In this document: one piece after another, positions 9,301 through 63,100 of the stretch
Layout: each line of letters starts with the position of its first letter
How positions within the stretch are numbered: the stretch's first letter is position 1
Source of the DNA: Ectocarpus siliculosus
Taxonomy: Eukaryota > Sar > Phaeophyceae > Ectocarpales > Ectocarpaceae
Reading direction: 5' to 3'
DNA: 64,000 nucleotides
Assembly (NCBI GenBank): GCA_000310025.1
Contig: FN649750.1
Coordinates: 4,441,696-4,505,695, forward strand
Notes under the pieces: generated by a model
The model's input: only the letters and a program-made list of their open reading frames with translations
Databases searched by the model: none
Told to the model about the DNA's origin: nothing
Made by a program: the position numbers and the translations under genes

Positions 9301-12300
9301 AGCGAGCGTACGAAATCACACAACATATGTACATGCACTGTAATAGAATAAACCGATGGAGCGGACGAACCACATCATGTACAGCAGTAGAGGCCCCTGT
9401 TTAGTGCCGGTTGAATGGTGCCGGTGTTTCGGCGACCACACTGGATGAATTTCCAAGCCTTCCTCAAAACTTTGAATACCGTAGGATGCGTAACATATCA
9501 CACCCCCTGGACCGATTTTCAAAGCTCGGATACCCCACGAGGACGAGGATGCCGACACCAGAAGGATGCGTTTTCGGAAAGATCTCGACGAGACGGTTTC
9601 AGCGCCGCCATTCTCGGCACCTTTACTGCCCTTCTTGCCGAGAAACCGAGCTTCGAAAATTGGTCCAGTGGTGTAGTGCCGGTAATTTTCTGGGCACTAA
9701 ACAGGGACCTCTACACTGTTTACAGAACGAACACAAGACGACGCACAACTTCACACCTACGGCGAACAATAAACAAATAGCAGCAGCGAAGAGCTAAAAG
9801 CACAGAAACAAATAAAGAGAACATGCCACTAGACAACAAGCGTACCTCTTCGCGGCACACGTGCTCCGGGTCGTTGTGGTCAAACCGCCTCGATCCCCTC
9901 ACTCCGTAAGTCAGGCGCGCCTTTCGCGATACAAACGCCCCCGTTCCCCTTGCGCCGAACAAAGCCGCCCCCGTCACCTGAATAGAGCGGTCAGCGATGC
10001 ACAGCCGACAATGCAACAAACGTGCTCGAACTCAGGCTTTGGGCGTCAGTGACGTACAGCTGACAACAGCAACGTGCTCGACCTCACATGTTGGGACAGA
10101 AAGCCGACCACAACATACAAGCAAGCAATAAGAACAACGTGTTCTAACCAGGCTTTGGCCAGAACGCCGACAATTAACAACGCGCTCGACCTTAAAGTTT
10201 CTTAAAAGTTTTGCGTCAGAAAGCTGACAAAAATATTAACAACGTGTTTGAACTCAAGTTTTCGCCAGGAACCGGACAACAAACAACACAAACAACATGC
10301 TCGCACTCAAGCTTTGACCAGAAATTCACTTGTTGTTGTATGATACGGTACACGACGTGGTACCATGTAGCGTGTGGGTTGCTCTTGCTCTTCATGAGGG
10401 TCTATTTCGACAGTGGTCCACGATACGCGCCGCTTCTGTCTCGACATCATGTCCAGGATGAGTTGCTATTGTCTTCTCACAAAAAAAAAAACACTCCGGT
10501 CTCCGCTCAGCACTCTTCAACACCCGAAACACCGGTCCAACCCTTCCGTGCTTCCGTGGTCACAGGCCAACTACCCACAAAACGGGTGCTCAATTCGAAA
10601 AAATAAAAATCTAGTCCCCAGAGAGACAAGTCACAAAGAGATGGATATCAGTACTGGTATACCTTACTTTCCTCTCTACGATACGATCACACCATCGTGC
10701 TGTGATCTCCTGAGCCACTCCGGAGGGATGCTCCTACGTATGCATGTGCATGTGTGTGCTCACCACCGCGAGGCCTGGCCTTGGCGCCACCACGACCTTG
10801 AGATCCCTCCCGGGGTCGTCGAACTCCTCGCGAATGGCGTCTTGCAACAGGGGACTGGCGCAGAACCCTCCCACCATGTAGATGTAGCACAGGTCATGGA
10901 GGTCCGGTGTGGACAGCTGCGTTCCCACCTGTTATAAGTTCGTTGGTACGGTAGGGTGTTAGGAAATAAATGGCTAGAACTACAATCCGGACGACTAGTT
11001 TGGGTAGGTCACACTTTCCCAGTCATGTCAGGTCCAAGTCGTGTGTTCGCGCGTGTATCGCCTGATGCCGTGTTCCGGACTCACTTCACAACACTCTCCG
11101 TAGGCTACGGTGCCGTGATCAACACGTTCTGCTTCTCCAATTAGGGATCGAGGTAGCATTACAGGTAAGGGTTGCTTCTCCAATTAGGGATCGGGGTAGC
11201 ATTACAGGTAAGGGTTCAGGGTGAAGGTGGCGAAGACAATCTTTGCGTACGGCCGCATCAAACTTTTGGCAAGAGGAAAAATAGTAAGACAAGCCCGAAA
11301 CCAACAGCCAGTCTACTCTAAAGCCATCGACCCGATTAGGTACGGCCAACAGCGGTGCAAATCAACAACACTCCTCGTAAATCCGGTCTTCTTTCTACCC
11401 CACGCTACACGTATTTCCCGTAGCCGGGACGAGCGCCTTTCATTCTCTTGAAAACTGATCGGTACTTTCTCTTCAAAAACTTGTCTGACACCGAGCACCA
11501 CTGAAACTTTCATTCACTTGCAGACAATCCGGCGTCACGTGTCTGTTGAAATAGTTGTTGAAATACTGCTACTGCTACCATAAATAGATCCTAAATAACC
11601 CAGCCCAGTATCCAGCCGGTTTTCTTCTCACTCGCTGTAAGGACTTCAACGCATCTCTTTCGACTGCCGTGGTAATATACCGACCGGGTAGTCTTTCTGT
11701 GAGATTTGTGTATACTTTCTAAATATACTCTGCTGTGTGATACCTCGTCCTTGATGGCGGTGCTGGCGTCTTTCTTGAAATACTTGAAATAGTGAATAAG
11801 CATACCTCGCCCTTGTTTGTGTCTCTTGAAATAGTCGAAACACTACTACTGCTGCTGTAAGCATACCTCGTCCTTGATGGCGTCTTTCTTGAAATACTTG
11901 AAATAGTGAATAAGCATACCTCGCCCTTGTTTGTGTCTCTTGAAATAGTCGAAACACTACTACTGCTGCTGTAAGCATACCTCGTCCTTGATGGCGTGCC
12001 TCTTGAAATAGTTGAAATACCGCTACTGCTGCTGCTGCATGCATACCTCGTCTTTGATGGCGGTGATGGCGCCCCGGAAGAAGCTCTCTACGAGTGCGGG
12101 TGGAAGCACGAGGTTCCTTCGAGTCCCCCCAACGTGCAGCTGCCATTCGCATCACATCACGTCACATCACATCACCGGGAGAGAGGAAGAGTAACGGCAT
12201 CGGCGACAGAGCGCGAGAACCGGCATCAGCGACAGAGTAGAACAAACGGCATCAGCGACGGAGCGCGACTATCGTATGAGCTCTTTTAGAGCAGGCAACG

Positions 12301-15300
12301 CGAAGGCGAAAGTGATCGAACGACGCGGCTTGATAGCCAAACCTTCAGCAGAAAGCAAACCACACGGTCTACAGTATAGTATAGTATAGTTTGGTATAGT
12401 ATATTATAGTATAGTTTAGTATAGTATAGTATATGCGTGCGTCGGGAAGGATGACGCACTCCTAATGAAGAAAAAAACAGCTTCATACCCGAGGTCGTAC
12501 AGCAACCGCACCGCGGCCGCACACACTGGCTTGTGAAGCGTTAACACAAATTAACCGTAGAAGAACCGTGACCGAAACCGTGTGCGGTAACGTTACCGTG
12601 GCCGAACGCACTGGAAAGTGACGGTTATCATAGCACAACGGCACTGCAAACGAACGTGTACGGGAAACGACGTATTGCATATGTAAACATACCTCCTTCG
12701 GCTTGGGGTCGTTGTGAAATTTCCTCAGCTCTTCGATCTCGCGGGGCGACAACTCTAGCAGGTCAGCGATGTCCCCGATGCTAACGCGCAAAGATGCTCC
12801 CCTCGCCAAGCGTGTCTGGGACGAAACCCCAAGAAAAACAAAAACACCGCCATGTCAGCACCGATTGATATGCCGCATAACGGCTCTTGGCAAATCGTGT
12901 CTGAGACTAAACGCCAAAAAAAAAAACAATCCAAGAATCGATAAAAAAAAAAATGCCGCCATATGGAACGCCCTTAAATTCGTACGTCACCACATTTCGA
13001 CCCTTATCACTTTAGCTTGTCGGCGAATTTGTGCGAATTTGTTCAGGCGGTACATTTTACCGTATGTCGACGACATAGTCTTCACACCACTACCTCCGAC
13101 ATAGGATTCGAGTGTTAAAACTACTGTAAGTGCGAGGTTGAGCATTTCAGGATTGGGTACTGTAAAAGGTCAAGGGTGCTGGACCTTTTGCCGTTCCCAC
13201 TCCACTGTGACAGCAAACAGCTCGTGTGTGCCCTCCAACCGCGTCATCCCTCCTGAAGCATTGTCGAAGAACTCCTGCAACATGGCAACAATCATTGGCG
13301 ACAGGTTGAGATGTTAGCTTGTCGAAGAACTCCTGCAACATGGCAACAATCATTGGCAACAGGTTGAGATTGTTAGCTTGTCAAAGAACTCCTGCAACGT
13401 TGCTACAATCATTGGAAACGGTTGAGAGTATTATCGTTATCGTGATACGCTTTGTCGATTCACACATCAAATCCGATTCAAGCAGTAGCAGCGGTCGAAC
13501 GTTGCCAGCAGGCCTAAAAAGCGGTTTCGCTTCACCTGTAAAAGGTCAGCCGACCAAAAAGGCTCAACTTGTCGAGGTAAAGCTGAAAAAATCTCTTCGG
13601 TACATGCGTCCGGAATTCCGTGAAATCGACAACAGAACACGGACCACTCGAGGACTGCCTCAGGCGCCAAGAAAGAATCAACAAGGGTCGACTACATACA
13701 ATACACAACCGGAATAGACGTTCTCTGATAGCGCTTCGGGGTAAGACCTGTATCCACGGAGCCCCCTAAAACAGAAAACTTAAAAAAAAAAACGGTGATG
13801 ACGGGCGCGCGTCCGGCAATATCGGCTAGGGGCCTCCCGTTTTCGGTTATATTCAAATCCCTCAGTTTTTTCGGTCACGTTTTTCCCAAATTCGGTCCGT
13901 TTCGCCCATTATCTAGGGAGAACAGGCCTACAAAAGACAAAACACCACGTTGGCTGCTGCACGTGCCTGAAGGAACGCCTTGAAACGCGTGTCTACGATG
14001 GAGCTCCCCCAAGCGCCACCGCAAGGCTCTGCCAGCTCGCTAAGCTGAAGCGGGTCCGAGCTCTCCACCAGATGCGACGTGATATCGATAGTCCCGCCGC
14101 CGCAATCCAGCACCATTATCTAGTCCGCCGAGTTTTACAGCACGCATCGCAAGAAAACAGACGAGGAGCAACAGCAGTCGTGAGCACCGTTGTCTTTTAT
14201 ATTCCACCGCGTATGTCGCAAAAAAACAGACGAGGAGAATGCATAACAGCATTCAACTATTCCGTTGCGTTATATGTACACAGCGCAAGAAATTCAATGA
14301 GAGGCAACAGCAACGGTGGGCACCATTATCTACAATACTCCACCGCGTTTACACATCGCAAACACTTAGCCGAGGAACAACAGGAGACGCAAGCACCATG
14401 ATGACGTATATTCCACCGCGTGTACCGCAAAAAAACAGACGAGGAGCAACAGCAGAGGCGAGCACCATGCATCTATTCCGCCGCCTTTACACATCGGAAC
14501 AAACTACATAGACGAGGAAAAACAGTCAAGACATAACTCGTGCTTCAACGTCAGACGTGGTCAACGCCTCACCACCAACCCACTGACAAAACTTACCACG
14601 AGAAGCGGGCCTGCTCTCCGACTAAAACACAACCGAGCTTCGACGTCAGCAGCACAGCCACCACCAATGATACCACGTATCCCCCGGGTGCAACGACCCC
14701 ACCCCCTGGTTCCACCTCTCGACCGCCACATCCCACCATCACCACCATGGAAAAATGTTCCCAACGTAACCCCCAGCCTACGGTGCCCCCCGGGTGCAAC
14801 GACCCCACCCCCTCTTTGCACCACCACACCCTACCATCACAATGATACCACGTAACCCCGCCTACCTTGTCCCCCGGGTGCCACGACCCCACCCCCTGGT
14901 TGGAGCTCTCAACTGCCAAGCAGGCCGCCTCCGGCTCCAGGCACAGCTTGAGCCCCTGCATGTCGTTCTCGTCGGCGATGAGACCCGCCCGGTGCGACGC
15001 CGCTCGCATGAACCGCTTCCCGAAGTTGGACCAGATGGCCGGCACCGTCACCACCCACATCAGCCGAGCGTCGTCTTCCTGCGCGATCATCGACTGCTCG
15101 GTGAAAAAGTGGGACGGGACGGCGGGAATATGGGACGGGACGGTGGGGAGGGGGTAGACGGGGCGTTGAATATCGCATCAAATGTTCGGAGGTAAAGTGA
15201 AGGGTGGGGTCGGCGGCCAAAGCCACCACACAACATCGAAACACCACATGACACACCCAACAGCACAACACCCGTGGCTCCGACACAAAAGGGTAGCTTG

Positions 15301-18300
15301 AAAGAGGGGGCTCCGACACAACAGGGTAAGGTCTGAACGGACGCGACCCGCAACAGTATGTAGGGTACCTTCATTCCGGTATACGAGGGGGCTCCGACAT
15401 CAAGAGGGTCAAGGGCCTTTGTCACACCACCCTCGTATCTTACATCGGAGCCACTACCCTATTATAGTAACACAATCAGGTTGGGTCGAATCATGTCATC
15501 GTCAACTATACCCAACAAGAGTCTTTGTTGGACTGATTTTTGGCGCTTCTCACTCTCACACAAGATTGAAATGAAATGGCAAGAAAACCCCACAACCAAC
15601 AAGCACGCTGTCGCAAACGACCCTAGCAGCATTGGGAGGTAGCAAACCCCGACACGAAATAAAAATCGACAACGGACAGGGACAGCCCTTGGTACACGCG
15701 CCAATAGTAAGGTAAAGATGAAGGATAAGGATAACGGAAAGGGGTTGAAGACAAAATATTCTTGATGTTGACAAATTGAAAACAAACGCAAGAGCACCGG
15801 AAAACGCACAACAGACATACAAGACCAGTCGGAAGGCATCGCGAAAACTTACCACCCTGTCGAGGATCTGGTTCTTGATGTACTCAATCGCCTTGCTGAC
15901 CACGAAGATCATCGGCAGAACCTCTCCCCCGACAGCCTTCGCCGTTGGCTCGTCAACGTCCATGCGCGCCCGTTGTTCCCTGCAAGTGGGAGGGACATCG
16001 ACAACAACACCCACAAAAAAATAAGCCAAGCACATACGTATGTATACACGGCACGGCAAGACACGTGTCAGCACCTTGTTCAGTCGTACTTTCTCGGGAA
16101 CAGAACCACCTCGCTTAGAGCATAGAGCTAAATAGTGGCGTGCCAGAGGTGACAATACATAAGATATCACCTCCCCCGTGGAGAGATTTGAAAGCTCCAC
16201 CTCTCCACAGCAGAAAGGGTGGCGATGCCGAAAATAGCGGCGATGGAAGCCCCCAATCAAATCGAGAGGTTTCCGGTACATGCGCATCCCGTGCGTTATC
16301 GCCCGCCCTCCCACTCTATTCTAACGCCTTACGTCAGTCTCACGCCTCTAGATACGTACATGGACGCACCCAGCCCGGGTCGCACACAACCGAGTACAGT
16401 ATTTTCTAATTTTTCGGTATTTTTCGTCTTCCTCCTGCGGGTCTTGCACTCATTTTCAATTTTCATCGCGAGTAGTATTCAGCCGTCCCTTTTCCCTCGC
16501 CGAATGTGACGTTGAATTGATCTGAACCTTACCTTCTACCTTGCTTTGACCATGATGTAAGGGAGGACCAAACAAAAAAAAAGTTCGCGACCTCGCCGAG
16601 ACTCGATAGCATGTCCACACATCGGAAGGCTAAACAAGGTAAAGGATTGTGTCCCCAAGTAAAACGTTACCACCGGGGAAAGCCAAAGGTTACACTGAGG
16701 CATCAAACTGTTGTCTGGCGAGAGCTGCGAGCGAGAGACTAGCACGCTTCCCAGGGATTCTCTACTTAAGTTAACATGTTGGATGAAGCATGCAAACCGG
16801 GGGGGGTTGGTTAGGGTAAGGGAATAGGGTCTGCGTACCCCCTCCCTGTTCTATTTCGTTACAAGCTAAATGAATTTCTCGCTGAGGCGGTCCCAAGAGA
16901 CCCTACAGCAGTTCTGCCTGGCGATAACTCTTGACACTTCTACCCTACAGAAGTGCTGCCTGGCGATAACTCTTGACACTTACCCTACAGCAGTGCTGCC
17001 TGGCCATAACTCTTGACACTTACCCTACAGGGCTGTCTGGCGATAACTCTTGACACGTAGCGATAACTCTTGACACTTAAACTTACCGCCCTCCTTGGTA
17101 GAGTTCCATCTTGAAGAACTTGAAGAGGACGAGGCTGCCTCTGTCCTCATCGGCCTCGTCCGCCTTAGCCGTCAGGTAGTCCTCCTCCGCCGTGTCCCCG
17201 AACCCCGCCACTCGCCACCCACCTTCCGCCTCGTCCTCGTCGCACCGCTGCATCAACACCGCCGTCAGGGTCTTCCGCTCCACCTGGTGTTACACGTAAT
17301 TTTGGGAAAACATTTCGACAACACGTTAGGCGGCTCAGCAGCAGCAGCAGCAGCGGTAGCACGAAGGCCGACCGCAGGTATTATCCGGGTTAACTTCCAC
17401 CCCGGCGTTATCAAAGCACTTTGGCCCTGGTCGTCGTCCTGTGGAATGTGCATGTCCCAACACACTCCTCTCCGAAAATTCCTGATATTCCAGCTACACC
17501 GTACGTAATACGTCCTCGGCATTTCTTGCCATTCCCCGGCCCCGAGCGATGAACCACCTCCCCACCTCTCTCGACAGCAGTGCCACACCACCCACCCACG
17601 GAGCCCCTCATTCTGTTCATCACGCATTCACGGTGCCCCTGAAATACTTACAGAAGACCGCGTTGCCACTGCCTGGCACCGCCGCCCATGGGGTCTACCC
17701 AAAACTGAATTCTGGGGATTTCGGGCATGTCCCCCTGTCACAGCGCCATTTGAGCTGCCGACATCCAAGTATACTTTTCATTAATGGCGGTGCCAACGTA
17801 TGTGCAGCCGGTGGCTGCTTCTGTGCGTTAGCTCTTCGTGCCATCACATGAGCCGTGTGTTCAGCAGTGGGCGCCAGGAATTGCGCTGTGGTGAATTGTG
17901 CCGTGTCTTGTCGTCCTGTGTTCAGGGTTTGTGTCCGAGCGGATCGCAATGCTGCAATGATTCTGCCTTTTTACATTGCCGTAGGTGCGCCAATGGCGTA
18001 TGGTACGCGATATACGAAGACGGTGCAATGCTTCATTCATCTCATATCAAAAAGACTAGCAGTGACCGTGCCACTACAACAAGTGCCACCCATAGACCCC
18101 CATACTTAGTTGACAATGCTGCTCTCCGCCCAAGGTTCCGTTGTTCTATCGCACGCCATCAAACAACGCAAAGTAAGGTTCCCCAATCGAAGGTTCCGCG
18201 CAAAGCGATTCTGTTGCGTTGACACTACGGGTTCGCTCTCACAACACAGCAGCAGCATCTTACGCCCCAAGGGATTGGACAGTGAACTTACAGAGGGCGG

Positions 18301-21300
18301 TCGAACGCAAACCTAACGAACGATGCAAGCTAGCGACAACATGACATCGGGAGGGGATACGCGAACTGGAAACACGGGACAAAAGCAGCGATATTAATAG
18401 GAGTAAAAGTTACAAAACGCCGCCCCTCCGAGAGACGTTGTATCGCCCCTCGAAGTACTATGCATGCCATCGCTGCCGCGCAATAACAACGCTGAACTGG
18501 CGGGAAGTGGTACGATAGGAAAGATAGGGAGGACAACATTCTTGAGTCACCTTTGCCAAGGTGGGAAAGGACGATACTGCCAGCGGTCATCGGCTCTACC
18601 TCTCGAGGACGCGTGGTCAATGGTCTAAGAACTAAGGCACGCAAAACATGAGTACTCCCCCCCCCCCGCCCCGGGAGCTCTCTCCCCCCGGTGTTTGCCA
18701 TCGGGGATGGGCTTTCGTCGCTTGGCAACGACGTTGTAAAATAAGCCCCTCCCTCGGTGTTTGCCACCGGGATTGGGTTTTCGTCGCTTGGCAACGACGT
18801 TGTAAAACAAGCCAATTCACTTCGTGAACTCGGCAACCAGGTTACCGTTTTTTTTTTTTCACCTCTGCTTTTTTTTTTGCGGTAACCATGAGTGATGGTC
18901 GAGTAGATTATCTTGTGCGGGGTCGAGAACCCTCACTCCGCGCAAGGGGGATGATCGCACCACGTTGTGTTAAAATGGTAAAGCATCCTCGAGGCAGTTA
19001 CACAGTGCTTATAACTGTCTCTGGAAGTGAAAGCACCAGAAAATAAATTAAGTCATACGCAGCTGTCATCCGTACGCAAGGAAGTAAGCACAAGATGCCG
19101 AACACCCTTAGCAGGATGAAGCGCACCCTTCATGCGACTCGCCGATCACCTCACGGCGCTTCGTGCTTGGTGATGTGAGAGCCTGGTCCGGTGAGAACGC
19201 GGCGTGCTCCGTCCCGGCTTTGTAGGGATGCGAGGTCAATGGTTTAACGACTACGGCATGCACGACTATTGAGTACACCGCCCCCCCCCCCCCCCCCCCG
19301 GAAACCCCCTGTTTTGATCCCGCAAACCCCGGGAAATAACCCGCCCCATGGCAAAAAAGGANNNNNNNNNNNNNNNNNNNNNNNNNNNNNNNNNNNNNNN
19401 NNNNNNNNNNNNNNNNNNNNNNNNNNNNNNNNNNNNNNNNNNNNNNNNNNNNNNNNNNNNNCCCCCCCCCCCCCGCCCGGGGAACCCCGGTGTTTTGATC
19501 TTGCAAGCACTGCAAGGTAGCCAGCCCAAAGCAAAAAAGGCACTTTGGGAACACACACACCGCAGGGACAATAAACTTAACTCCCGAGACAAGCTTGCCT
19601 GTAGCGTGCTCCCGTAGGTCACATGATATATCACACACCCAGGATCGATTTTCACAGCTCCATTATCAATATATTTTTATTTTTTTGTCAGTATGACCCA
19701 ACGAATCCATCTCTGTATCGAACAAAAGAGTCTAAGATAGATTAGCAATGAATCCATAGCGTCAGCGAAAGTTATCCCACGCCGGAAGGCTCTCGACGAC
19801 AGAGACGGTTACGACGCCGCCATTTTTCGGCACAGCCACCCTTCCACTCTTTCCTGCTGTGGAGAAATCGAGCTTTGAATGTCAGTCCAGGGGGGGTGGT
19901 ATCTTGTGTCATGTCATGTCGCCTATGGTACACAGCACAAGTGCGCAAGCTTGTTTCAGGAATCGCGTTCCCGATATTATCGATGCCAGTGCAGCAAATA
20001 TTCTACACCTACGGAGGCTGCGTTTACAGCCAGGTACATGACAGAACATACCAGTTTGGCGGTCGGTCATCACGAATTTCCCCACAGAGCCAGAGATGAG
20101 CAACCAATGGAGATGGGGACGCCCCGCCCCACGCCTACAATTTATCAACAAAAAAAAAATACCAGCCAAGCATTCACAATACCCCTGCCTCAACGCCCCT
20201 TTCTCCCTTCGAACATGAAATGAGGGAGTTGCAGTATACACGCATTCCGGCTACAGTACGCGCGCGGATCAGCAGTTCGCGATAGAGTGCCACCTGGGTA
20301 GAATCGGAAAAAAACACCAATATATATCTCCGTTGGGTGAACCCACAGAGAGTTGCAGTGCGAATTGTAGATGTACGTACGTGATCGGAGATCGGAGAGG
20401 GACAGGGCGGCTTGCGGCTTGGGGTGGCGTGTTCTCCGATGCTGTGCTCCACACGTCGGCAGGTTCCCGAGATGCTTCTAACCCGGGAATGCCCAGAGAA
20501 AATTAAAGCTCCTCGGATACAAGAGGATAACCCACATCCCACGCGACATGAACGGGAGTTTCGACTAGCACGAGCTGTGGGATACCACCTACCACCGTTG
20601 AGTTTGATTGCACTTTACACTAAACACCAGGGACGGGCTTCGTTTGGTACCGACCGCTACAAACGCAAGTCGGTAAAATGCTTGTTTGAACGGTGCCCAT
20701 GGGCCAAACCAAAACCAAATTGTCACCAACAGCAGCAGTAGTGGCTGCAAAAGTTTGTTGGAGGCGAGAGTACAGCCGAGGCGTGAAGTGGACTCCCACG
20801 GTGGACGCACCAGGCCGACGGCGGGAAGGGCAATCGTTGCGGCATGCAACGCATGGCCGCAAACACCCCACGGAGCTGCTGCTGTGGGTGCTCTCGCCTG
20901 CTGCCACGCACATGACACAGCAGCAGCAGTACCCGATGGCCGAGATGTTGTACTACGCATGGGTAAACATTGATTATGCGGGTGCGATGGTGGCGCGCTT
21001 TGCAACAACCCGCTGGCGACCTCGGCACACTCTCACACTCAACACCGCAAACCAGAGAAGTTGAAAAAGTGTTTTTTTTGGAATGTGGTACACGGGTAGT
21101 CTACAAATGCACACAAGAAAAATTACCCAACGGCAAATTGCTTCTCAGCTACTTGTGCGGCGCTTTGGAGAAAAATAGAAAGACGGAGAGCTGGTAAGTG
21201 GCGTCGCGTGCTGCTGCGGGCGACAAGAGACAAGCAGGCCATACGAGGGATCGATTCGCTTTGGCAATAACCTGGCATGCTGTTTTGAACATCATCCAAC

Positions 21301-22094
21301 CAATACTTTCCTGCGGCATCGCATGGCATCGGCATCACTAGCGGATAAGGCGCGTGAACAGCGCGCATGTGCCTCCCTCCAGGAAACAAAAACCATAGCC
21401 GCAGGTGACCTCTAAAGAGGCGAAAGCCGTGGGTCGGGGGTGGCGGTGGGGGGCAATGGGCGAGAGCTCTTTATCATCCTGCATACCATCCCCAAGTTTA
21501 AGCACGACCTCCGGACGTCATGCATGTGTCTGACGAGTGTGGAATGTATAGAAAGGGCGAGGTTGAGAACCAGCCGCCAGGGACAGAGTAGGAATGTTCG
21601 AAACCACCTCTACAACAATAGAAGTAGCAGTACGAGAAAGAGAGGAGCACCAGAAATATTGATCCCCCAAAAAGATAATTGCACGCAGACTATTGTACTG
21701 CTGTTGTCGGAAACAGGGCGAAGGAGAGACCACCAAGACGAGATGCCCACGAAGATGGAAGGTTTCGCGGGCAAGGTCGCCGGCCGTGGAGGGAGCAGAG
21801 GGCTGCTGCGGTAAATCGGGCGGCTCGGTCGGGGCTAACTGAAAGGCCGGCAACAAGCAGATGGAACACAATCACCAATCTCTCGGCAAGACCCTTGAGC
21901 GCTGCTGTATCGGTCAATTTCACCCAAGGGCCAAGACGGAGACAGCCCAAGAGTACGCGAGCACTCACGTTGCGGTCATCGTCGGGGGAGTCCGGAACCC
22001 CAAGCCAGATGTGCTCCCGCCCCACGACCGTGTAGGCATAGGCCGTGCGGCTGGTCCCCAAGTCAATCGCGGCAACGATGTCCCCCGCCTGCAT
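6321..22094 (-). CDS. HSPA12-like Hsp70-superfamily ATPase, 14 exons, 638 aa
   Basis: Exons: 22094..21969, 17283..17087, 15979..15853, 15093..14866, 14119..13967, 13274..13185, 12815..12693, 12139..12047, 10928..10764, 9977..9846, 9089..8964, 8282..8187, 6839..6714, 6455..6321 (stop 6323-6321). Every junction keeps frame; 12 of 13 introns are phase 0 and intron 2 is phase 2. The actin/Hsp70 ATPase motifs appear in order: phosphate-1 loop AAIDLGTSRTAYAY in exon 1; WVVTVPAIWS and LEPEAACLA in exon 4; phosphate-2 loop VLDCGGGTIDIT in exon 5; adenosine motif YMVGGFCASPLLQDAI then PGLAV in exon 9; the HSPA12-typical FVSRKARLTYGV in exon 10; and a C-terminal FGGTEIAV segment in exon 13. Length matches HSPA12 proteins (about 640-690 aa), which lack a classical substrate-binding domain. 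The acidic tail is lineage-specific. Intron 5 appears to use a GC donor (CAG|gcacgt). The exon 4 acceptor could lie 3 bases upstream (15096). A cytosolic chaperone-like or signalling ATPase role is inferred from the family. Confidence 0.93.
6840..8186 (-). other. HSPA12-like intron 12, with dispersed repeat
   Basis: Non-coding. Part of it (about 7520-7700) resembles 10455-10640 in intron 9 of the same gene: both carry ttccggtctcc(a/g)ctcag and, further on, ctttccgtggtcaca(a/g)gccaact. Nothing else is supported here. Confidence 0.6.
9385..9720. mobile_element. MITE-like element, copy A, in HSPA12-like intron 10
   Basis: The ends are inverted repeats: left tagaggcccctgtttagtgcc (9388-9409), and the reverse complement of the right end (9694-9714) reads tagaggtccctgtttagtgcc. 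Just inside is a second inverted pair (ctggaccgattttcaaagctcgg, and the reverse complement of cgagcttcgaaaattggtccag). tacag flanks both ends and may be a target duplication. It has no coding capacity. The interior matches copies at 19614-19915 and 16150-16250. Confidence 0.6.
9990..10320. repeat. Degenerate minisatellite, unit about 60 bp, in HSPA12-like intron 9
   Basis: About six decayed copies of aacaacgtgctcgaactcaagcttt followed by gccagaaagccgacaa. The array lies just upstream (minus sense) of the exon 10 acceptor at 9978. Confidence 0.7.
11131..11218. repeat. 44-bp direct duplication containing acaggtaag
   Basis: Two near-identical copies of ttctccaattagggatcg(a/g)ggtagcattacaggtaagggtt, adjacent to each other in HSPA12-like intron 8. 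On the plus strand each copy holds an acag/gtaagg junction. Confidence 0.85.
11741..12060 (-). repeat. Tandem array derived from the exon 8 end plus 5' splice site
   Basis: The true donor of exon 8 (12047) reads ATCAAAGACGAG|gtatgc. Three further copies of (a)tcaaggacgaggta(tgc) follow in intron 8, spaced 114 and 123 bp apart. Each is joined to cttgaaatacttgaaatag, and half-unit copies carry the weaker gggcgaggtatgc. The array is hierarchical, with a half unit of about 57 bp. Confidence 0.88.
12372..12434. repeat. AGTAT/TATAG microsatellite
   Basis: Imperfect tatag pentamers in HSPA12-like intron 7. Confidence 0.95.
12816..12935 (-). repeat. Duplicated 3' splice site and exon 7 start
   Basis: The true acceptor reads tttcgtcccag|ACACGCTTGGCGAGGGG (exon 7 starts at 12815). 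About 80 bp upstream in intron 6 is tttagtctcag|acacgatttgccaagagc, preceded by the same poly-T tract. This is a decayed second copy of the acceptor and exon edge. Confidence 0.7.
13259..13430 (-). repeat. Tandem array of the exon 6 start and its 3' splice site
   Basis: Three copies of a unit of about 59 bp, with gttgccatgttgcag|GAGTTCTTCGAC as the minus-sense core. The innermost copy is the real acceptor (exon 6 starts at 13274); the two copies in intron 5 keep the AG and the exon-like bases but have decayed elsewhere. Confidence 0.9.
14109..14490 (-). repeat. Tandem array of the exon 5 start and its 3' splice site
   Basis: In minus sense the real junction reads cggcggactag|ATAATGGTGCT. About five decayed copies of (c)ggcggaatag..atgcatggtgct or cggtggagtattgtag|ataatggtgcc lie at roughly 70-bp spacing upstream in intron 4, each followed by a gttgctcctcgtctgttttt-like spacer. 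Confidence 0.82.
14671..14905 (-). repeat. Tandem array of the exon 4 end and its 5' splice site
   Basis: The exon 4 edge GGGGTGGGGTCGTGGCACCCG...AAG|gtaggc is followed in intron 4 by two more copies, ggggtggggtcgttgcacccg at 14764-14813 and 14681-14711, joined by ggttacgt-gg spacers. The exon 4 reading frame stays open through all copies, to about 14593. Confidence 0.88.
15745..15850 (-). repeat. Dispersed intronic repeat, copy 1 (partner at 37405)
   Basis: It starts immediately after the donor of HSPA12-like exon 3. In minus sense it reads ccttccgactggtcttgta, then tgtgcgttttccggtgctct, then tgcgtttgttttcaa. The same order and wording occur on the plus strand at 37405-37510, inside DENND6-like intron 12. 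Confidence 0.85.
16150..16250 (-). mobile_element. MITE-like element, partial copy C, in HSPA12-like intron 2
   Basis: aagatatcacctcccccgtgg ... gatttgaaagctc ... ctctccacagcag ... gccgaaaatagcggcg matches one arm of the 19614-19915 element in inverted orientation. Confidence 0.65.
16903..17087 (-). repeat. Tandem array of donor-like units beside the exon 2 donor
   Basis: The exon 2 junction is GGAGGGCG|gtaagtttaagtgtcaag. Four units of about 46 bp follow in intron 2, each with ctgtaggg-taagtgtcaagagttatcgcc, so the gtaag context recurs in each repeat. Confidence 0.82.
18605..18813. repeat. Direct repeats near poly-C tract
   Basis: Two 60-bp copies (18689-18748 and 18755-18813) share cggtgtttgcca and tcgtcgcttggcaacgacgt. 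The preceding segment (18605-18665, gtggtcaatggt..aa.gact..ggca.gca, then poly-C) is repeated in diverged form at 19227-19285. Confidence 0.75.
19362..19461. other. Assembly gap (100 N)
   Basis: Exactly 100 N, probably an arbitrary gap size. Both sides begin with poly-C and continue with related sequence (tgttttgatcccgcaa / tgttttgatcttgcaa, then gcaaaaaagg), so the gap interrupts a tandem repeat with a poly-C component. It lies in intron 1, so no exon is lost. Confidence 0.97.
19614..19915. mobile_element. MITE-like element, copy B, in HSPA12-like intron 1
   Basis: The left end (gatatatcacacacccagga, then cgattttcacagctcc) pairs with the reverse complement of the right end (gataccaccccccctggact, then cattcaaagctcgatttctc). 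The interior ggcgccgccatt-like block is shared with copy A. Non-coding. Confidence 0.6.
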
Positions 22095-31900: not shown

Positions 31901-34900
31901 GACCTATGCACACGGTACATCCTACAAACCCAGGCACTTGTACGGATGCCGAGTGCGAATTTCAACATCCCGAGGTAGCACGTCATCACCTTCACCAAGT
32001 GTTGGCCGTCTCACTCTCTTTCCCCGCTATGAAAACCCCTTCGGCCCAACCCTCCAACCATTCGACCCAACCATCCAACCATTCGGCCCAACAGCAACTT
32101 GCGAGCAGGCCGTTCACCCTTCGCCGAGATGCTCCTGGCGGACGAAGCCCGCTTTAGAGCCAAGCAGGGCCTCTTCCAGAGCATCGGGCTGTACAGCATC
32201 TTCGGCAAGAAGCTTGTCGAGCACCTGTGGCTCTTGTGGGAGCTGGTGCTCACGGGGGGGCCGACCCTCGTGCTGGGGTCTAGCGTGGGGGCGTCGTCGG
32301 CGGCGATTCTTGGGATGGTACGTAACCACGGTTTTGGTCCATATGTTTTTTGTCTTGGCCTTGCCGTGTAGCCGTAGCCATAGTATATGGGGCGTCGGCG
32401 TCGGCGACCATTGTTGGGATGGTATGATGGTATGCACCGCGGTTCGTATCCATACTTCGCCTTGCCGAAGTAGCCGTAGTTCATGGGGCGTCGGCGTCAG
32501 CGACCGTTCTTGGGGTGGTTTGTGGTACGGTTTGTGCCCATGTTTTCATCTGCGACTTTGCTTGTAGCCGTGATTTATTGGGCGTCGTCGTCGTCGTCGA
32601 CCCTTCTTGGATTGTACGGTTTTTCTCGCGGTGTGGTCGTGGCTTCTTGGGCGTCGTCGTCGTTGGCCTTTCGTGGCATGGTACGGTTTTAGTCCATATT
32701 CTTGTCTACGCTTGCCGTATGTCCGTAGTTGATCTGGGGCGCCGTCATGGGGCGACCATTCTTGAATTGTACGGTATTTATCCAAAATTTCCGCTGCGCC
32801 TCGCGGTGTCGCCGTGGCTTATCGGGCCTCGTCAACGGCGGACATTCTAGGATGGTACGGTTTCTCGGCGGCCACTCTTGGGATGGTCCTCGCCAATCGT
32901 CGGCCACTCTCGGCTGGTTAGCTTTCGCTCTCATTGCTGTTCGGAAATAGGGTGTTCTTGTATACCACGTCTCAAGAGGGTTGTGAGTCCCAACCGACCG
33001 ATCGTTGTCTCCTGAGAAAGCGTGCAAAAGTCTGATTTTCTCGTGCTTTCAATGCCTGCGGTACGCGTGGCGTTTTTCTTGCGGGTGGGACAGGTGAGCC
33101 TCGCTTCCCCGGTGTACTACGGAGGGGACTTCCGGCCGCACTTCACTACCTTCGACCCGGACTACCGTGAGATCGTCGCCGCCCACGACAAAGTCAGCAA
33201 GCAGCAGATGTGGGGGTAAGCAAACAAGCAAGCAAGCAAGCAGCCTACAATGATAATATTACTTTTTCATGAAAAGTTATATTTATCGCAGGTATACTTT
33301 TTCATGGTATGATACCATGGCATTGTGCCGGTTGTATACTTTTTGTTGATGGTTGGCGGTTTCTGAACGCATCTTTTTCTGTTGACGTGTTTTTTTGTGG
33401 TTTTCAGGCGTATGTATTTTCGTGGTTGCTTTTTTGTTGTGTCCTCGTCCGTGGGTTAACAGCAGTTGGTTCAGGTCTGACTGCCACCGATCAGACCGTG
33501 GGTTGCGCGTCCTTCAATGTGAGGTAGCGCAAGTGGTTGAGCCGACGGGCGTATTTAGTTTTCGGTGACAAAATTAGCATGTGATTCGTCCGAGTTCATG
33601 AGGCACCCCTCCGAAGATGCGTGACGCCCCTCACGAAAGTGCATGGTGTGGTGTCGCCTGCTGCTGCACATGGCACCTATTTTCCACAACGACGTTCGTA
33701 ATTTATATTGGCTGCATTGATTGATGCTGGCGGCGTAAGGGGGGAGTAGTGAGACAAAGAGCGGTCGGAAACACTTCCACTGTCCACCAATACTGGCCTA
33801 ATGGATACCTTGTCTACGGGAACAATGATTTGGGATGCCTCCAAGCACCCGGTGTGCAAGTTAGGGTGCCAGGCCTAACCTCTAGGAGGTTGTGATTGGC
33901 CCATATGTTCCTTTTCGCTTCCCAGGTCCTCGGTTCTAGGCGTACCCGCGGCAGGGTCTGCGGCGGGCGCCGGGGGCGGGTTTCCTAGCCTCCTGCTAGG
34001 CGTTATTAATCCGATCTTCCTCAGGACCTTGTCAAGGTAAGGTATATACGACATTCGATTGCATTTTCGTTCTTAGAAAGATATATTTTTTTTTCGTGCG
34101 GTTGTGCTGTTAAACTGCAATTCCCTTTGTTTCAGGCAATCGTAGCCTTCAGGTCAATTCTAGAACTGTTGCGTTGTGCTGATTGAGGGTGTTGGGTGTG
34201 GAGGGGATGAGTGGTGAGTGGCTGCTGCTATTGCAGATGCACCCAGCGTCGAAACGCTCGTATGGCCATTTGCCAGTAACTCTCTCGTCTCTGCAACCGT
34301 CGTCAAGTCTCCACCGAGTCGTTCACCACCACCCGCAATTTGAAGCATCTTTTGAAACCAAACCGCTGCATCAACCCATGGCTTGAAACTTGGAAAGTAC
34401 CGACCCTTGACATTTGCCACGTACCATGAAACGAACCATGAAAAGAACTGGGCAACGAACGAATGAGTGGTGTTGCTGTGGGAACCATGGAATGGACTAA
34501 GTACATTAGCAACGGAATAAAAGACTCCGTATTATGAATGGACTATTGAGTTCAAGATATGCGACGGAATATGTTTGGTCCTTATCATTCAGCGACCCGT
34601 GGAATAATCCGTGTGATTTCCCGTTTTCCTCGGAATGGATCCTTCCCCCGAACAGGTGGCCGAACGCGATCGTGCTGCCTGGAGCGCCTGGCAGAAGCCC
34701 CACCGCCGGCAAGGCTGGGTTCCACAAGCTTCAGAAAAACCTCTCTGAGGAAGCCCCCTGCGGCAGTCCCAAGTGAGACCAAGATAAGACGCGGCGATAA
34801 GCCTCAACGGCGCGCTTGGATGCGCACGCACCTTGGCGCAAGAGTTGCACGATTGGGGTGACTACAAGTACAGCGTGCATTTTTTTTCGTGTGGCCGCGG

Positions 34901-37900: not shown

Positions 37901-40677
37901 GACGTCACGTACCTGTTTCGACTTGCTGTCTTCGAACGCCGTACCTTTGTGCCTTTTCAGCGTTAGCCCATTCACTCCCTATGCCCAACTTCGTCACTCT
38001 AGTTCGAGCCGTCCATTTGCTGGAAAAGTAATCGATTTGCTAGTCCGTTGTTAATGTCCGTTTTGGGCGTGGTATGCAATGTTTGTACATACCTGCGTGG
38101 GTTTGGCATTCCAGGTATGCGATGCAGCATGACGGTTTCGACGACCTTACCGGTACCACTACTCACGATACATTTTGCCTTCGATGCAGCAGGGTAAGGC
38201 AAGGCGACGAGTGCAGATGTGCCCACTGAAGATGTGACGTCATGGTATTTCATGCGTATGACATCTACGATACCTACGATGCGGCGTTTCTGCTTCGTTT
38301 TCCGCAGGTCGTTTCTGGCACCGTACGACCAGTACTTTCGGAGAGCAAGACCACCACAGGCTCTGTCGGCATGGCAGGCTTTGGTGAGTGCTGCCTTGCC
38401 TGGCGTCCGATTTTTAGGTTGCTGACATGTGAACACTGATGGTACCCGCGGTCACGGTATGAAGGTTTTGGTGCTTGGAGCGATGCGGTATGTGGATTTC
38501 TGGTTGGGAGGTGAGAAAGGATTGGGAGCTCATCACGAGCTCATCACTTGTGACAGCCACGGCACCGGCAACAGGACATTCGGATGTCTTTTCATTTTCT
38601 GTTGTGGGTTTCGTTAGCATCAACTTACTTGGTGAGTGCCCTTTGTGTGCGGGCTCTCGCCCGAACCACTACGCTTGCACTGCAAATGCACTGGCTATGT
38701 TCTCGTTTACCTCCGCACTTGCCTCGAATGGCGTCACCAAACTCCGATCAAATTTATGTGTTTGGTCTGTCTGCCCAGGCTTTGGGAAGGTTGTCCGTGT
38801 ACACCGAGGCGGAGTTGCTGCTACCTCGCTTCGACCAAGAAGAGTTCCTCACCGAAATGTTCGTGGCGGGACCCCCTAAGGTACGGTAAATCTTGTCATT
38901 AAGGTAAACCTTGTTCCCATGAAGGTACACGTTATTCCCAAGAGGTACACCACGTTTCGAAGAAGGTACACCTTGTGTTCGAAGGTATACACCTCGTCTC
39001 CACGAAGGACACCTTGTTTCCGAAGGTACATCTTGTCTCCCAGGAAGTTACACCTTGTTTCTTTTGACTGTCTGCGTGTTTGCGTTGGTGGTTGGTCAGA
39101 CGTGGCTATTGGTGATTTGTGTCGGTGTCTAGCTGTGATTTCACTCACGGAGCAGGCAGGAAAATTTTGTATGTTCATGCATATGTCCGAACATTGGAGA
39201 GGCCGATTGTGCCACTGCGTGTACGAAGTGGGTGAGTTGCAGGCAGGCGATGTCACGACTTTTGAGGCAACATCGCCCGGCACGTTTCGTTTCGTCTTGT
39301 TCCCCGCCCCTCACTTGTCATGCAGGCGTTCGTGCACGTACAGTGGGAAACCCTGTACCGTCGTTTCATGGACAGCCCAAACTTTCAACCGTGGTTTACA
39401 ACACAACGGATGGAGGGCGTCAATCGAATACGGTGAGTGCCAAGCAAACCCACACAAACATCGTGCACGTGTGTGTTCCACTGCTGCGAGGTACTTGAAC
39501 TGTGTGAATATGTCGCTCGCGTGATGGCAACAATGCGGCCGGACACACACACGACCGTAGTTGTTTTACCACGGCCTCGGAGGAATGGTGGGTGTAAACG
39601 ACCTGCGTGCTTCCCGTATGAACTGTCACGATGGCGTCAGGCACGACGGCGGGCGGTTTGCGGTTTGTTTCGTCCCGTCCCGGTGCAAGCAACGAATAGG
39701 AATTCGTCATGCTTTGCACTAGACGGGGCTCGTTCTGTGGAGATAGACCCCCAAGATAGTTTCTAAACCCATCCGTATTCTTTGCCCATCCGGAACCAGG
39801 CGGACGTATCTTATCCACACCAAGTTTCTGTCAACGTTTGCCACTATTTTTGTGAAATGGTGTACGGTGACGTAATTCATTTACACCAATTACTTTGAAC
39901 CTGTGCCACTATTATATTATAGCGTAACCGTCCGTGTGGTACGTTCACGGCTTTCGCTAACCCTGTTGCTGCGCAGGGAGATGAGCCGTGCGATGTGCCT
40001 GCGGACGACGCCGCAAGGTATCGTGGAGGCTTGTGCTCCGGCTCGATTACCGCAGGTGAGACACGAGATGAGATGCGGATGGAGCGCGATGGGTGTCGGC
40101 ACCGCTCACAATGGTATCGCGTCCGCATCGACGCTGGCAGCTGCAAGCACATTCTGGCCTTGCCGTTGTCTGTTGCTGCGGCTATAGATTGTTGGGTGTA
40201 GGTTCTCAACGTGTCGTTGTTTGTACAAGCCTTGTTGTTGCGCCTTTGCCTTCCGCAGAGTCGTTCACACAAGAGTTGCATTCATTTCTGACGGCCTTGG
40301 CGCTCCGGAGCTGTGCTCTGAGGACAGTCGTGTTAGCGTGGATGCCACCGTGAGTTGTGAAATCAAGCTGGAACGGTTGTGATTGGTTGAGTGTTTTACA
40401 TCATGTTTTCTCTTGGACGGTATGTGTAAGCACTCAATGAGGATGGTGTCCAACAGGTTGTGGCCAGTGCCGCAGACCGAGGCGGGGGATGATGCTGTTG
40501 TCGGCTTTGCCTCGTGTGCTGCCTTTGTTGCAGCTGCTGGCGAAGATCAAGGCGGCGATAGCTCGACAGTGGCAGAAGAAGCAGACCGTTGACTGGGACT
40601 TGTTGGAGAGAATGGAGCAGCACCAGAAGGCTGTCGCTTCCGCGATCGTGGCACAGTCCGCTCGTGGTGAGGGGTAG
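22595..40677 (+). CDS. DENND6-like DENN-domain Rab GEF, about 17-18 exons, about 1,565 aa
   Basis: Exons: 22595-22747, 25763-25869, 26382-26478, 27259-27342, 27640-28545, 29369-31161, 32095-32317, 33094-33215, 33926-34036, 34656-34772, 35443-35599, 36280-36548, 38308-38383, 38779-38880, 39326-39432, 39977-about 40017, 40259-40349, 40534-40677. Frame holds from exon 1 to 15; the exon 16/17 joint is off by one base in my model. Family landmarks in order: WVRSICVATFD; FYCFR; FEYCYAFFRQERNE; FQKSVVVVSRYPYVNLFERL; DWPAPCPG; HLWLLWELVL; DFRPHFTTFDPDY; LLGVINPIFLRTLSRWP; ILRRHFADLTRSFLAPYDQYF; LYRRFMDSPNFQPWF; and a C-terminal helix AKIKAAIARQW. DENND6 proteins act as guanine-nucleotide exchange factors for endosomal Rab GTPases (Rab14 in animals) and are about 600 aa; the excess here is low-complexity sequence in exons 5 and 6. 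The start is the only ATG in exon 1. Confidence 0.92.
24244..25044. mobile_element. PIF/Harbinger-like MITE, 801 bp, in DENND6-like intron 1
   Basis: The left end gggtcggtcttaacgaag (from 24244) is the inverse of the right end cttcgttaagaccgaccc (to 25044). The inverted repeat continues for about 45 bp through atcagat.tcgaaatcacat with few mismatches. TTA flanks it on both sides (24241-24243 and 25045-25047). A 3-bp TTA target and GGG-starting ends are typical of PIF/Harbinger elements. There is no transposase frame, so it is non-autonomous. Confidence 0.85.
25691..25724. repeat. ctatgctacg decamer repeat
   Basis: Three perfect and one partial copy, shortly upstream of the exon 2 acceptor of the DENND6-like gene. 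Confidence 0.95.
25899..25949. repeat. (TC)n microsatellite
   Basis: About 25 uninterrupted TC units starting 30 bp after the DENND6-like exon 2 donor. Confidence 0.97.
27900..28545 (+). other. Low-complexity insertion 1 within DENND6-like exon 5
   Basis: After the conserved FLGETVMFQVPDID segment the frame runs about 230 codons of Gly, Pro, Ser and Ala with polyG and EEEEQQ patches, without family similarity, to a strong donor (TCGGAG|gtgagg). A second frame is also open over 27959-28525 because of high GC. An alternative inside this exon, such as an unrecognised internal intron, cannot be excluded. Confidence 0.65.
29369..31161 (+). other. Low-complexity insertion 2: single 1,793-bp DENND6-like exon
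   Basis: 597 uninterrupted codons after an acceptor (gccgctaacag) and before AG|gtgtgt, phase 0 in and phase 2 out, joining both neighbours in frame. It begins with a conserved-looking stretch (LTLDGRAGSN, CYYVADQ) and an acidic run (EEDDEDED), then long Ala, Gly and Ser tracts (runs of up to nine Ala). The insertion sits within the DENN module, just before the AEMLLADEARF...HLWLLWELV part. It is GC-rich compared with the introns. Confidence 0.75.
32287..32890 (+). repeat. Tandem array of exon 7 end plus 5' splice site in DENND6-like intron 7
   Basis: The real junction is GGCGTCGTCGGCGGCGATTC(TTGGGATG)|gtacgt. Intron 7 then repeats it at about 32389, 32485, 32579, 32647, 32732, 32820 and 32867. 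Each copy has a ggcgtcg-rich block, (c/a)ttcttggga(t)tg and a gta(c/t)ggtttt donor-like continuation, ending with a tgtagccgta(g) spacer in the earlier copies. Spacing is about 70-105 bp. Confidence 0.92.
33216..33241 (+). repeat. (AAGC)n immediately after a 5' splice site
   Basis: The exon 8 donor gtaagc is continued by aaacaagcaagcaagcaagc, so the repeat starts from the splice site itself. Confidence 0.8.
35677..35694. repeat. (GT)n microsatellite
   Basis: Nine GT units in DENND6-like intron 11. Confidence 0.9.
37405..37510 (+). repeat. Dispersed intronic repeat, copy 2 (partner at 15745)
   Basis: ccttccgactggtcttgta, then tgtgcattttctggcactct, then tgcgtttgttttcaa: same order as the minus-strand copy at 15745-15850. 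It lies in DENND6-like intron 12. Confidence 0.85.
38869..39066 (+). repeat. Minisatellite of donor-like units after DENND6-like exon 14
   Basis: The exon ends CCTAAG|gtacgg. About ten units of roughly 18 bp follow, with consensus (g)aaggtacaccttgtttcc, each repeating the AAG|gtac junction. Confidence 0.88.
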
Positions 40678-60100: not shown

Positions 60101-63100
60101 GCACATCTTGTGTCACACGAATGGGCTTCTTACCGCGGGGGACTATCCTCTCCCGCTTCGGCGGATGACATGATCATTCCTACAAGGCAGACCAAAGACC
60201 CACAGACGCCATCAGGTCAGACCGAACCTCTGACCCGAACTATACTCTGGAGCAGAAAGCACACACCAACACCCCAGAACTGCACCAACAACGGGAACAA
60301 GTACACAGTCAGCATCGAGCACAACCGCAAATAGCTGACATGTAGGGTCAAACAGTTGGCACATAGGGTAAGGTACCACCACGGCAAAGGGACCGAAAAC
60401 TGCAACAGGCAAACAAAAAAAAAAAACCCGGCAGGTTCGAGTTCCGCTAGGGCAGCTTCGAGTTTTACCAAAAAAAAATGCACCCCATGGGCTGACTCAC
60501 AGGCCATGACCAGGACAATCATGCATCCCATGGGCTGATTCACAGGCCACGGCCAGGATAACAAGCAGCCAACAGTCCGAAACCATGTGATACCATGTGT
60601 GTCGCCCCAACAGACATTCCAGTAAGTGAATAGGTGAGAGATACGACAAAAAAAAAGCTGAGGCCTGAAGGAGAGCCTCGCCGGAGTCCGGTCCTGATCG
60701 TTTTCCACTACCCAAAGAATCCTGTCGAATATCAAACACCAAAAACCCATCCAGCCAACAGACATTCCTATCGAACGAACATACAGCCTTTCCGAAAACC
60801 AGTTTATCCCACAAGAAAACGGCCGACAGACAGACATCTACCACACAAGCAAATGCTCGACAGACAGACAATCACGAGAGTCTCGTCGACATTTACCTGA
60901 CCCACCGATCGGCGCCTCGGGGGGAAGAGCTTCCGGGAGAGCCCAGTCTAAGAAGTTCACCACCGTTCCCGCCTTAAGCCGGAGAATGTCCGTATCCGAA
61001 CCTCCGCTGCTCGTTTCCGACGCTAACGCCTCGGAGTACTGTGTGTGAAGTACCAGCGGGGCAATACCATGGAACCGTCACAGAAAGGACACTGCAACAG
61101 AGCTTCCGAGGAAATGAGGGGGTCGCCAATAGAGGGGACGGCAAAAACCGATCCATCCTGCGTGACCCCCGCCGGATCTGAGTCAGTCTAGTTCAGGGTA
61201 GAGAAGACATGGTCGACCTCCCAGGTCAGACGAAGGGTTATTTTCGCCAACAGTAATTGACCGCGATGATCAAAATACAGTACATGGTAAGTACGAGGAA
61301 ATGAATCGTGGACGCCACGTGTGGGCACACACTAATAGCACGTACACGCGTATCACTAGAAGGAAAAAAAAAAACAAACGATGGAACAATGCACAGCCCG
61401 GCGACCGGGCACGAGCGGAAGGCCGAGTCGTAGTCGAATTCAAATTCCCTGTACCAGTGCCCGCACGATGATCTGTAACTCTTGTATCACCGGACAGATA
61501 CTCTTGCAGATCATGTCGCCACAAACTAGTCTTCTTCGTTGGATCTTCTGGCATGCTGTCTGTCACGCAAATGTCGTGGTTGATAGCTGTTTCGGCGATT
61601 CCAGGTTACGAGGCAAGGCGTCACCGAGATTGTGTGTGCGTGCGCAAGAAGCGCTCATAAATCGTTGAACACCGCTACAGTTCAAACAGGTACGTGTCGA
61701 CACCAAAGCACGGAAGAAAGCGATCATACTTGTGGTGTCGACAGCCTGCCGCAATGTCGTTGCTTCTACAACCAGACACCTGGACCAGACGCGAACGGTA
61801 GCGCGGTGATATGCGGGAGCGGCGACCAACCGCGTGGAAAGAAAGCGCATTCAACATTGGATCTACGGGAGGGTCTATGAACTCTATGACACGATAGGGA
61901 TCTGTGATTGGATCTACGATAGGATCTACGCTAGATCTACGATAGGATTCACGATAGGATCCGTAGGATGTACGATAGGCACAACGATAGGGCCGAGAAA
62001 AGCACACCTTGCTGCAGGCGTTGGAGCAAAGCCCCAACACTTCCTGTACAAGTGATGAGGGCGGTGGTGGCGGTGGGTGTTCGCTCGAGCTTCTCTCCGC
62101 TGTTGCACCGTCGTCCATGACAATCTGCATCATGCTGCCCGACAACACAGGGGCATTCAGGGCATCAAAGCGAAGAGTGCACGCGTGATGAGCAATAGGG
62201 TACCGAATGGGCGAAAGGGTTTCGGGACCACCTGCATCATGGTTTCGGAACCACTTGCATCATGCCGCCCGAGAGAGAAAAAAGAGTTTTCGTGAAAAGC
62301 GTGCTAAAAAAGGGAAAACAATCAAGAGACAAAAACAACAGGGCGGAAACACTTCATTCGGCCACGTTCTCCATACATTACAATCTAGCCACGCGACCAA
62401 TGGCGGAATACGTGTACTGTACCAACAAAGAGTTCACGGCCTGCATGACAACGAGCGTGGTTTCATCCAGGCTTTCAGTTGAAGACGAAAGTCCAAAGGA
62501 AACGAAAAAACGTATGACACCATTAGTGAAATCAAAGAGTGAAAGCATGAATGAAATACATAGTGAAATTGAGAGCGAAATCGAAGGTGGAATAAAAACC
62601 CAACAACAAGTGGAAAGTGCAGTCGACATCGAATGTGGGAAATGAAGTGAGAGTAAAACCGAAAAGTGGAATCGAAAGCGGAATCGACAACAAAATCGGA
62701 GACGACCACACAGTGAAATCAAAAGTGAAACCGAGAGTGAAATGTGAAATAGACGAACGGAACTAGCGGGCGGCGACTGAATGAAGTGGAAGGCAAATCC
62801 AACGTGGAATGAAAATGGGGAGTGAAACGCAAGTCGAAAGTGGAGTGGAGAATGAAATTCAAAGTGGGATCGAATGTGACAAATGAATTGAGAGTGGAAT
62901 CCAAAGCGTAAGTAAAGCGACGTTGGTGAAACGGCCAGCGGTCGCGGTAGAGGCGGAAACGCCGTACGTTGTTCGCCCTCCACAATGTCGAAGATCGGTT
63001 AACTCGACGGGATCGACATGCACCCTTCGTCCGCCCACTTTGAAAATCGTGGTGTATCGTAGCTGGTGCGGGTGCCTTGGGTCGTCCAACCAGCCTGATG

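Follow-up and report, generated by a model that had tools for sequence, protein, structure and literature searches.

Short tandem duplications at splice junctions and elsewhere in the introns of Ectocarpus siliculosus

Genes and arrays in the window

The window analysed here is a stretch of 64,000 nucleotides from the brown alga Ectocarpus siliculosus (GenBank assembly GCA_000310025.1, contig FN649750.1, positions 4,441,696 to 4,505,695 of the forward strand). Two neighbouring genes within it, an HSPA12-like and a DENND6-like gene, carry tandem arrays that begin at or close to their splice junctions, and several of these arrays hold copies of exon edges. A first-pass annotation of the window had attributed them to a general mutational process aimed at exon-intron borders. 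Comparison with 26 other regions of the same genome (189 Mb in 492 contigs) suggests that splice junctions are not targeted specially, because the sampled introns carry local duplications throughout.

According to the gene finder described below, the HSPA12-like gene lies on the minus strand, with its first exon at 21969–22094, and extends down to about 8.2 kb of the window or lower, and the DENND6-like gene lies on the plus strand at about 25.8–40.9 kb. The Pfam matches behind these names (HSP70, E 3.6e-4; Avl9, 4.6e-4; DENN, 0.013) are all below Pfam's cut-offs, and we take both names as provisional, derived partly from sequence motifs. A third gene keeps the name TPR-like from the first-pass annotation; Pfam gave no match for it. 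The features on which the analysis turns are the following.

11741–12046, minus strand: donor-derived array that starts HSPA12-like intron 8 (Tandem Repeats Finder, TRF, and alignment)
12047–12116, minus strand: HSPA12-like exon 8, from whose 3' end (AIKDE) the intron 8 array derives (gene finder)
12526–12692, minus strand: one acceptor-side copy in HSPA12-like intron 6 (exonic-only p 0.03, spanning p 0.002)
12816–12930, minus strand: acceptor side of HSPA12-like intron 5, with one junction-spanning copy, mostly intronic (spanning p 0.002)
14120–14461, minus strand: acceptor-side copies in HSPA12-like intron 4 (exonic-only p 0.066, spanning p 0.002)
14656–14865, minus strand: donor-side copies in HSPA12-like intron 4 (best alignment from exon -37 to intron +39)
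14866–15093, minus strand: HSPA12-like exon 4 (gene finder)
16900–17086, minus strand: 40-bp minisatellite that starts HSPA12-like intron 2
32095–32317, plus strand: DENND6-like exon before intron 7, in the numbering of the first-pass annotation (gene finder)
32318–32918, plus strand: degenerate donor-derived array, most of the 776-nt DENND6-like intron 7
38881–39061, plus strand: 20-bp minisatellite that starts DENND6-like intron 14
61891–61991, minus strand: TPR-like 12-bp minisatellite near a predicted donor, without exon sequence

Exonic copies at the claimed junctions

Donor-side arrays had been reported in HSPA12-like introns 2, 4 and 8 and DENND6-like introns 7 and 14, and acceptor-side arrays in HSPA12-like introns 4, 5 and 6. 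At each junction a query of the 30 exon bases next to the intron, with no intronic sequence, was compared with that intron and with its dinucleotide shuffles (999 for donors, 499 for acceptors at corrected coordinates). Strong exonic copies were present at the donors of HSPA12-like intron 4 (5 hits), HSPA12-like intron 8 (3 hits) and DENND6-like intron 7 (12 hits, some of them half-unit overlaps), each with p 0.001. The acceptors of HSPA12-like introns 6 and 4 have weak or short exonic copies (p 0.03 and 0.066, respectively), the common exonic part in intron 4 being about 11 nt by eye. No exonic copy was found (p 1.0) at the donors of HSPA12-like intron 2 and DENND6-like intron 14, which begin their arrays at the junction and copy essentially no exon, or at the HSPA12-like intron 5 acceptor with the 30-base exonic query and 499 shuffles. 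The TPR-like donor also gave p 1.0 with the exonic query. A junction-spanning query of 20 exonic and 20 intronic bases reached the lowest possible p_sum, 0.002, at all eight claimed junctions, the best single hit at the DENND6-like intron 14 donor reaching only p 0.028. The arrays starting at junctions are thus real, but at three of the eight claimed junctions they are intronic.

The intron 8 array of the HSPA12-like gene contains five junction copies in 306 nt. Exon 8 shows protein continuity with the next exon (VGTQLS...), its acceptor-side boundary being uncertain; the array itself was considered as coding sequence and ruled out, since the exon's frame runs into a stop. A higher-order 114-bp unit with 97% identity lies at 11764–12019 within this older array and suggests recent growth or exchange. 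In DENND6-like intron 7, a 40-nt junction query gives 11 hits, corresponding by eye to about seven or eight units, and the best alignment covers -51 to +38 about the junction. The copies in this intron and in HSPA12-like intron 4 are absent from the TRF list and are based on alignment. Units of the HSPA12-like intron 2 minisatellite contain a donor-like AGGGTAAGT without exon sequence, and those of DENND6-like intron 14 resemble AAG|GTACAC, with an exonic part of at most about 3 nt. A separate 66-bp tandem pair (90% matches) is located at 18685–18813, within the long predicted first intron of the HSPA12-like gene.

By TRF the arrays are direct head-to-tail copies at a single locus, as in minisatellites and short tandem duplications. 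The claim that units differ completely between introns holds roughly: 3 of 36 array pairs were similar at p<=0.05, where chance would give 1.8, and their scores lay close to the shuffle maximum or beneath it. The genome was searched with four queries, representing 5 of the 9 arrays, by a method that skips simple or very common words, and no dispersed copies were found; each query matched its own place, and the only extra match (49 nt, 88%) lies at 14870–14918 of the window, inside the adjoining exon. For the arrays covered by these four queries, the dispersed copies that would mark a transposable or introner element family were not seen, in line with the first-pass view that no such family is involved.

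Sample regions and gene models

The sample consists of 26 regions of 10 kb (260 kb, L001–L026) chosen via dynein, CCT and HSP70 matches and not via repeats; it represents conserved genes of one genome rather than random genes, and every junction in it is predicted, not transcript-based. The gene finder was built for this analysis and trained on 156 Pfam-located exon pieces in the sample regions. It covered 146 of these pieces and predicted 471 exons, window included. Three further stretches (L027–L029, the flanks of the window and one arbitrary stretch) served gene prediction and array coverage only. Sample exons entered the junction tests if their coding score was at least 8 or if they contained a Pfam piece. 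Flanks shorter than 120 nt were dropped in the swap and offset scorings and those shorter than 150 nt in the dinucleotide-shuffle scoring; flanks or exons with N were dropped in the shuffle scoring, and flanks with runs of N in the others. For the window, the shuffle scoring used a curated list of 43 exons, made up of 41 of the 62 predicted and two added by eye (HSPA12-like exon 5 and DENND6-like 39327–39431), with the boundaries of HSPA12-like exons 6 and 7 shifted by hand. The 21 exons dropped had low scores, stood at chain ends or, in two cases, were pseudo-exons within the HSPA12-like intron 8 array. A count of 0 of 34 junction-crossing arrays, obtained when the window was scored with its uncurated gene set, was not used, because weak exons beside arrays are missing from that set.

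Two side observations concern the genome at large. A CCT exon match at G000:C38:126891-127037 lies within an apparent open frame of 6959 aa, which may be an N run or a long repeat. The EsV-1-7 cysteine motif (PF19114) has very many candidates in the genome, 880 at first look, 150 of which were scored, an abundance taken as a sign of a brown alga.

Exon edges compared with intron interiors

The first-pass annotation had proposed a genome-wide scan of junctions against shuffled controls, which was carried out here in scaled-down form. In the swap scoring, 60-nt exon edges were aligned to their own intron, to ten swapped introns and in antisense. At a score of at least 13, 15 of 585 sample junctions were positive, compared with 2.2 expected from swaps and 5 in antisense; in the window the figures were 2 of 42 and 1 in antisense. 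The shuffle scoring compared 30-nt windows with 99 dinucleotide shuffles of their own intron (p_sum<=0.01, so that 1% is expected by chance), and found 14 of 580 sample exon edges (2.4%) duplicated in the adjoining intron, with 5.8 expected. The excess over controls that had been predicted is therefore present and small.

Duplication was at least as frequent away from the junctions, contrary to the idea of a process aimed at exon-intron borders. Interior windows at offsets 60, 120 and 180 were duplicated in 63 of 1707 cases (3.7%; 17.1 expected). The share at -60 was 7 of 576 (1.2%) and that of the first 30 intronic nt 16 of 580 (2.8%), so that, with donors and acceptors pooled, it climbs going into the intron (1.2%, 2.4%, 2.8%, 3.7%), where a decay away from the exon had been predicted. 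Donor edges scored 4 of 286 and donor interiors 31 of 841. The pooled odds ratio of edge to interior is 0.65 (p 0.18), with a 95% range of about 0.36–1.16 by our own arithmetic, windows within one intron not being independent. For this sample, the range rules out a strong peak at junctions.

Finer offsets gave a similar picture. With 30-nt windows scored against swapped introns, the donor-side share was at most 0.4% at -30 and deeper in the exon, 1.1% at -15, 1.6% at 0, 2.0–3.5% from +15 to +210 and 0.5–3.6% from +225 to +300; on the acceptor side it was 0.4%–2.8% throughout the intron and at most 0.7% in the exon. With 40-nt donor windows, controlled by reversed and reverse-complemented introns, 5 of 283 reached a score of at least 8 at -40 (controls 1 and 2) and 6 of 282 at -20 (6 and 3), compared with 13–23 of 254–273 from +20 to +200 (controls 2–11 and 1–3). 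A duplication peak at the junction was not found in any of three scorings of the predicted junctions in the 26 regions.

Tandem arrays identified by TRF cover 1.66% of introns in the sample, 1.36% of other sequence, an unclassified class that can contain missed exons and introns, and 0.06% of exons. Since arrays are similarly dense in introns and other sequence, the duplication process seems to belong to non-coding DNA generally. Arrays lay in the donor half of sample introns in 24 of 37 cases, which is not significant (p 0.10), and donor-side cover exceeded acceptor-side cover in 9 of 10 bins of 50 nt.

Structure and orientation of the copies

Positive exon edges numbered 22, 17 in the sample and 5 in the window, and several of them are chance by the shuffle expectation. 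Ten had an extended alignment score of at least 17, and nine of these extend past the splice site by 4 nt or more on the intronic side, so the template copied was DNA rather than spliced RNA. Among the sample cases, the clearest are an acceptor in L020 at 2815 (49/51 identical) and donors in L014 at 5333 (38/45) and L018 at 7489 (37/45). Among 627 junctions, same-strand copies outnumbered antisense copies by 9 to 0 at a score of at least 16 and by 17 to 6 at a score of at least 13. Direct orientation, proximity to the junction and, in most strong cases, homology across the splice site are thus observed features of the copies. Five near-perfect arrays extend -1, 0, 1, 1 and 4 nt beyond two periods, too few to argue against slippage; a sixth near-perfect row (114-bp unit, 2.2 copies) was set aside from this count of boundary homology.

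Decoy donors within the arrays

Four decoy donors in HSPA12-like intron 8 are identical to the true donor (GAG|GTATGC, 5.5 versus 5.5). In HSPA12-like intron 2 the unit donor scores 5.4 and the true donor 5.5, with a stronger GT (7.3) far outside the array; unit donors in DENND6-like intron 14 score up to 5.6 against 6.6. Donor copies in DENND6-like intron 7 and HSPA12-like intron 4 are weaker than the true donor, and across the five donor-side arrays that were scored no unit donor was stronger than the true one. As a baseline, the 288 sample donors have a mean of 0.47 GTs within the next 300 nt that equal or exceed the true donor in score.

Local richness of the HSPA12-like stretch

Interior windows are duplicated more often in the window than in the sample (31/245 versus 63/1707, p 9e-8), and exon edges are not clearly richer (5/83 versus 14/580, p 0.077); the window scored 1/73 at -60 and 6/83 in the first 30 intronic nt. 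Intron length accounts for part, not all, of this gap, with 24/141 window and 23/477 sample interior windows positive in flanks of at least 700 nt. The rest of the window outside the HSPA12-like stretch gave 14/187 interior and 2/63 edge windows. Interior-rich loci exist in the sample too (L014, 11/63; L017, 6/39). Array cover was low in the flanks and arbitrary stretch (L028, 0.5%; L027, 1.1% with 48% N; L029, 0% with 48% N), which gives no clear sign that the abundance of repeats extends to the region as a whole. Duplications are concentrated locally in the HSPA12-like gene. Because the window was selected by a reader who had noticed the pattern, its frequencies are not an unbiased estimate.

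Discussion

The arrays are probably the outcome of ordinary short tandem duplication in non-coding DNA, which sometimes falls across a splice site and is followed by array growth. Direct tandem duplications of tens to about 100 bp with arbitrary ends would arise throughout this alga's non-coding DNA, by end joining after fill-in at breaks or by replication slippage. A unit straddling a donor or acceptor would carry some of the exon edge into the intron, and the duplication would presumably be neutral and tolerated while the original junction was still used, because the coding sequence is unchanged. Slippage or unequal exchange could later multiply the unit; a single founding event would then account for many copies, which would decay afterwards.

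Several observations weigh against this explanation or limit it. The difference between edges and interiors is not significant (p 0.18), and depletion at junctions is not proven; acceptor edges (10/294) nearly equal acceptor interiors (32/866) in the shuffle scoring, so the edge-to-interior rise is a donor feature. The donor-side shares from +225 to +300 possibly represent a weak fall far into the intron. No sample array crosses a junction with at least 5 nt on each side (0 of 50, against 5.2, range 2–9, by random rotation), but the rotation control ignores the arrays' general avoidance of exons, and the result therefore shows selection or avoidance and not only an absent hotspot. Finally, the HSPA12-like stretch is unusually rich (17/58 interior and 3/20 edge windows), and this clustering, with one intron having copies at both ends, is unexplained by a uniform process alone.

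A junction-targeted process, in which repair of breaks or R-loops at transcribed exon-intron borders duplicates the junction in tandem, would fit the exonic copies at five of eight claimed junctions, three of them strong, together with the small excess of exon-edge copies in the sample and the lean of TRF arrays and their cover to the donor side. We nevertheless consider it unlikely: no scoring showed a junction peak, no sampled array crosses a junction and the donor lean is not significant. Junction-spanning 40-nt donor windows equal the reversed-intron control at a score of at least 8 (6 versus 6 of 282), although 4 versus 0 remain at 12 or more, and strict exon edges favour acceptors over donors, opposite to what R-loops at donors would give. 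That selection keeps donor-copy arrays, repeated U1-binding sites aiding recognition or protection of long introns, appears still less probable. In several arrays (HSPA12-like introns 8 and 2, DENND6-like intron 14) donors match the true one in strength or come close to it, yet none beats it and two arrays have weaker copies; judged from the sequence, the second donor of HSPA12-like intron 8, if used, would meet an in-frame TAG after seven codons. It is likewise improbable that the arrays are what is left of introns born by tandem duplication (the Rogers model), with introns made from exon copies. Exon-derived sequence does occur within introns, and DENND6-like intron 7 consists mostly of donor-derived units, but the copies span exon and intron of an existing junction and not an exon-internal AGGT segment.

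Beyond these alternatives, it is conceivable, though we would not expect it, that in some genes of this lineage the introns grow mainly because their own ends are duplicated in tandem again and again, with series of near-equal decoy donors as a result, and that a local factor (chromatin, transcription or repair) makes the junctions of those genes prone to duplication. A special process at splice junctions would have been surprising and is not supported. Under ordinary tandem duplication, the HSPA12-like and DENND6-like loci illustrate one route by which long Ectocarpus introns can lengthen, and the repeated donors of equal strength are natural tests of how a true donor is chosen. High intron content is described for most brown algal genomes, and long introns for Ectocarpus, in a report that also gives a median intron length of 524 bp on Ectocarpus autosomes and a relatively even distribution of tandem repeats across the genome (PMC12477816). 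Among the literature matches listed (titles and abstract openings), there was no report of junction-derived arrays in brown algae.

Known systems resemble the algal arrays in different respects. In human and mouse cells, breaks that are filled in by CST-Pol alpha and then end-joined give rise to small tandem duplications (PMC8355091). Those duplications are short and direct, as here, where the few near-perfect cases may have little boundary homology. CeRep25B of C. elegans likewise forms tandem units inside introns (units are 12–114 bp here), but it clusters along whole chromosomes and carries splicing motifs (PMC4039745), whereas the algal units are local and a few have exon-derived sequence and repeated donors. 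The potato RdRp gene (PMC4974935) is a published precedent, like the algal cases in showing direct tandem duplication of an exon edge with the adjoining intron and duplicated splice signals. In potato, one duplication made a new intron with a formerly cryptic donor, whereas in the alga the original junction appears still in use and the unit has multiplied within the intron.

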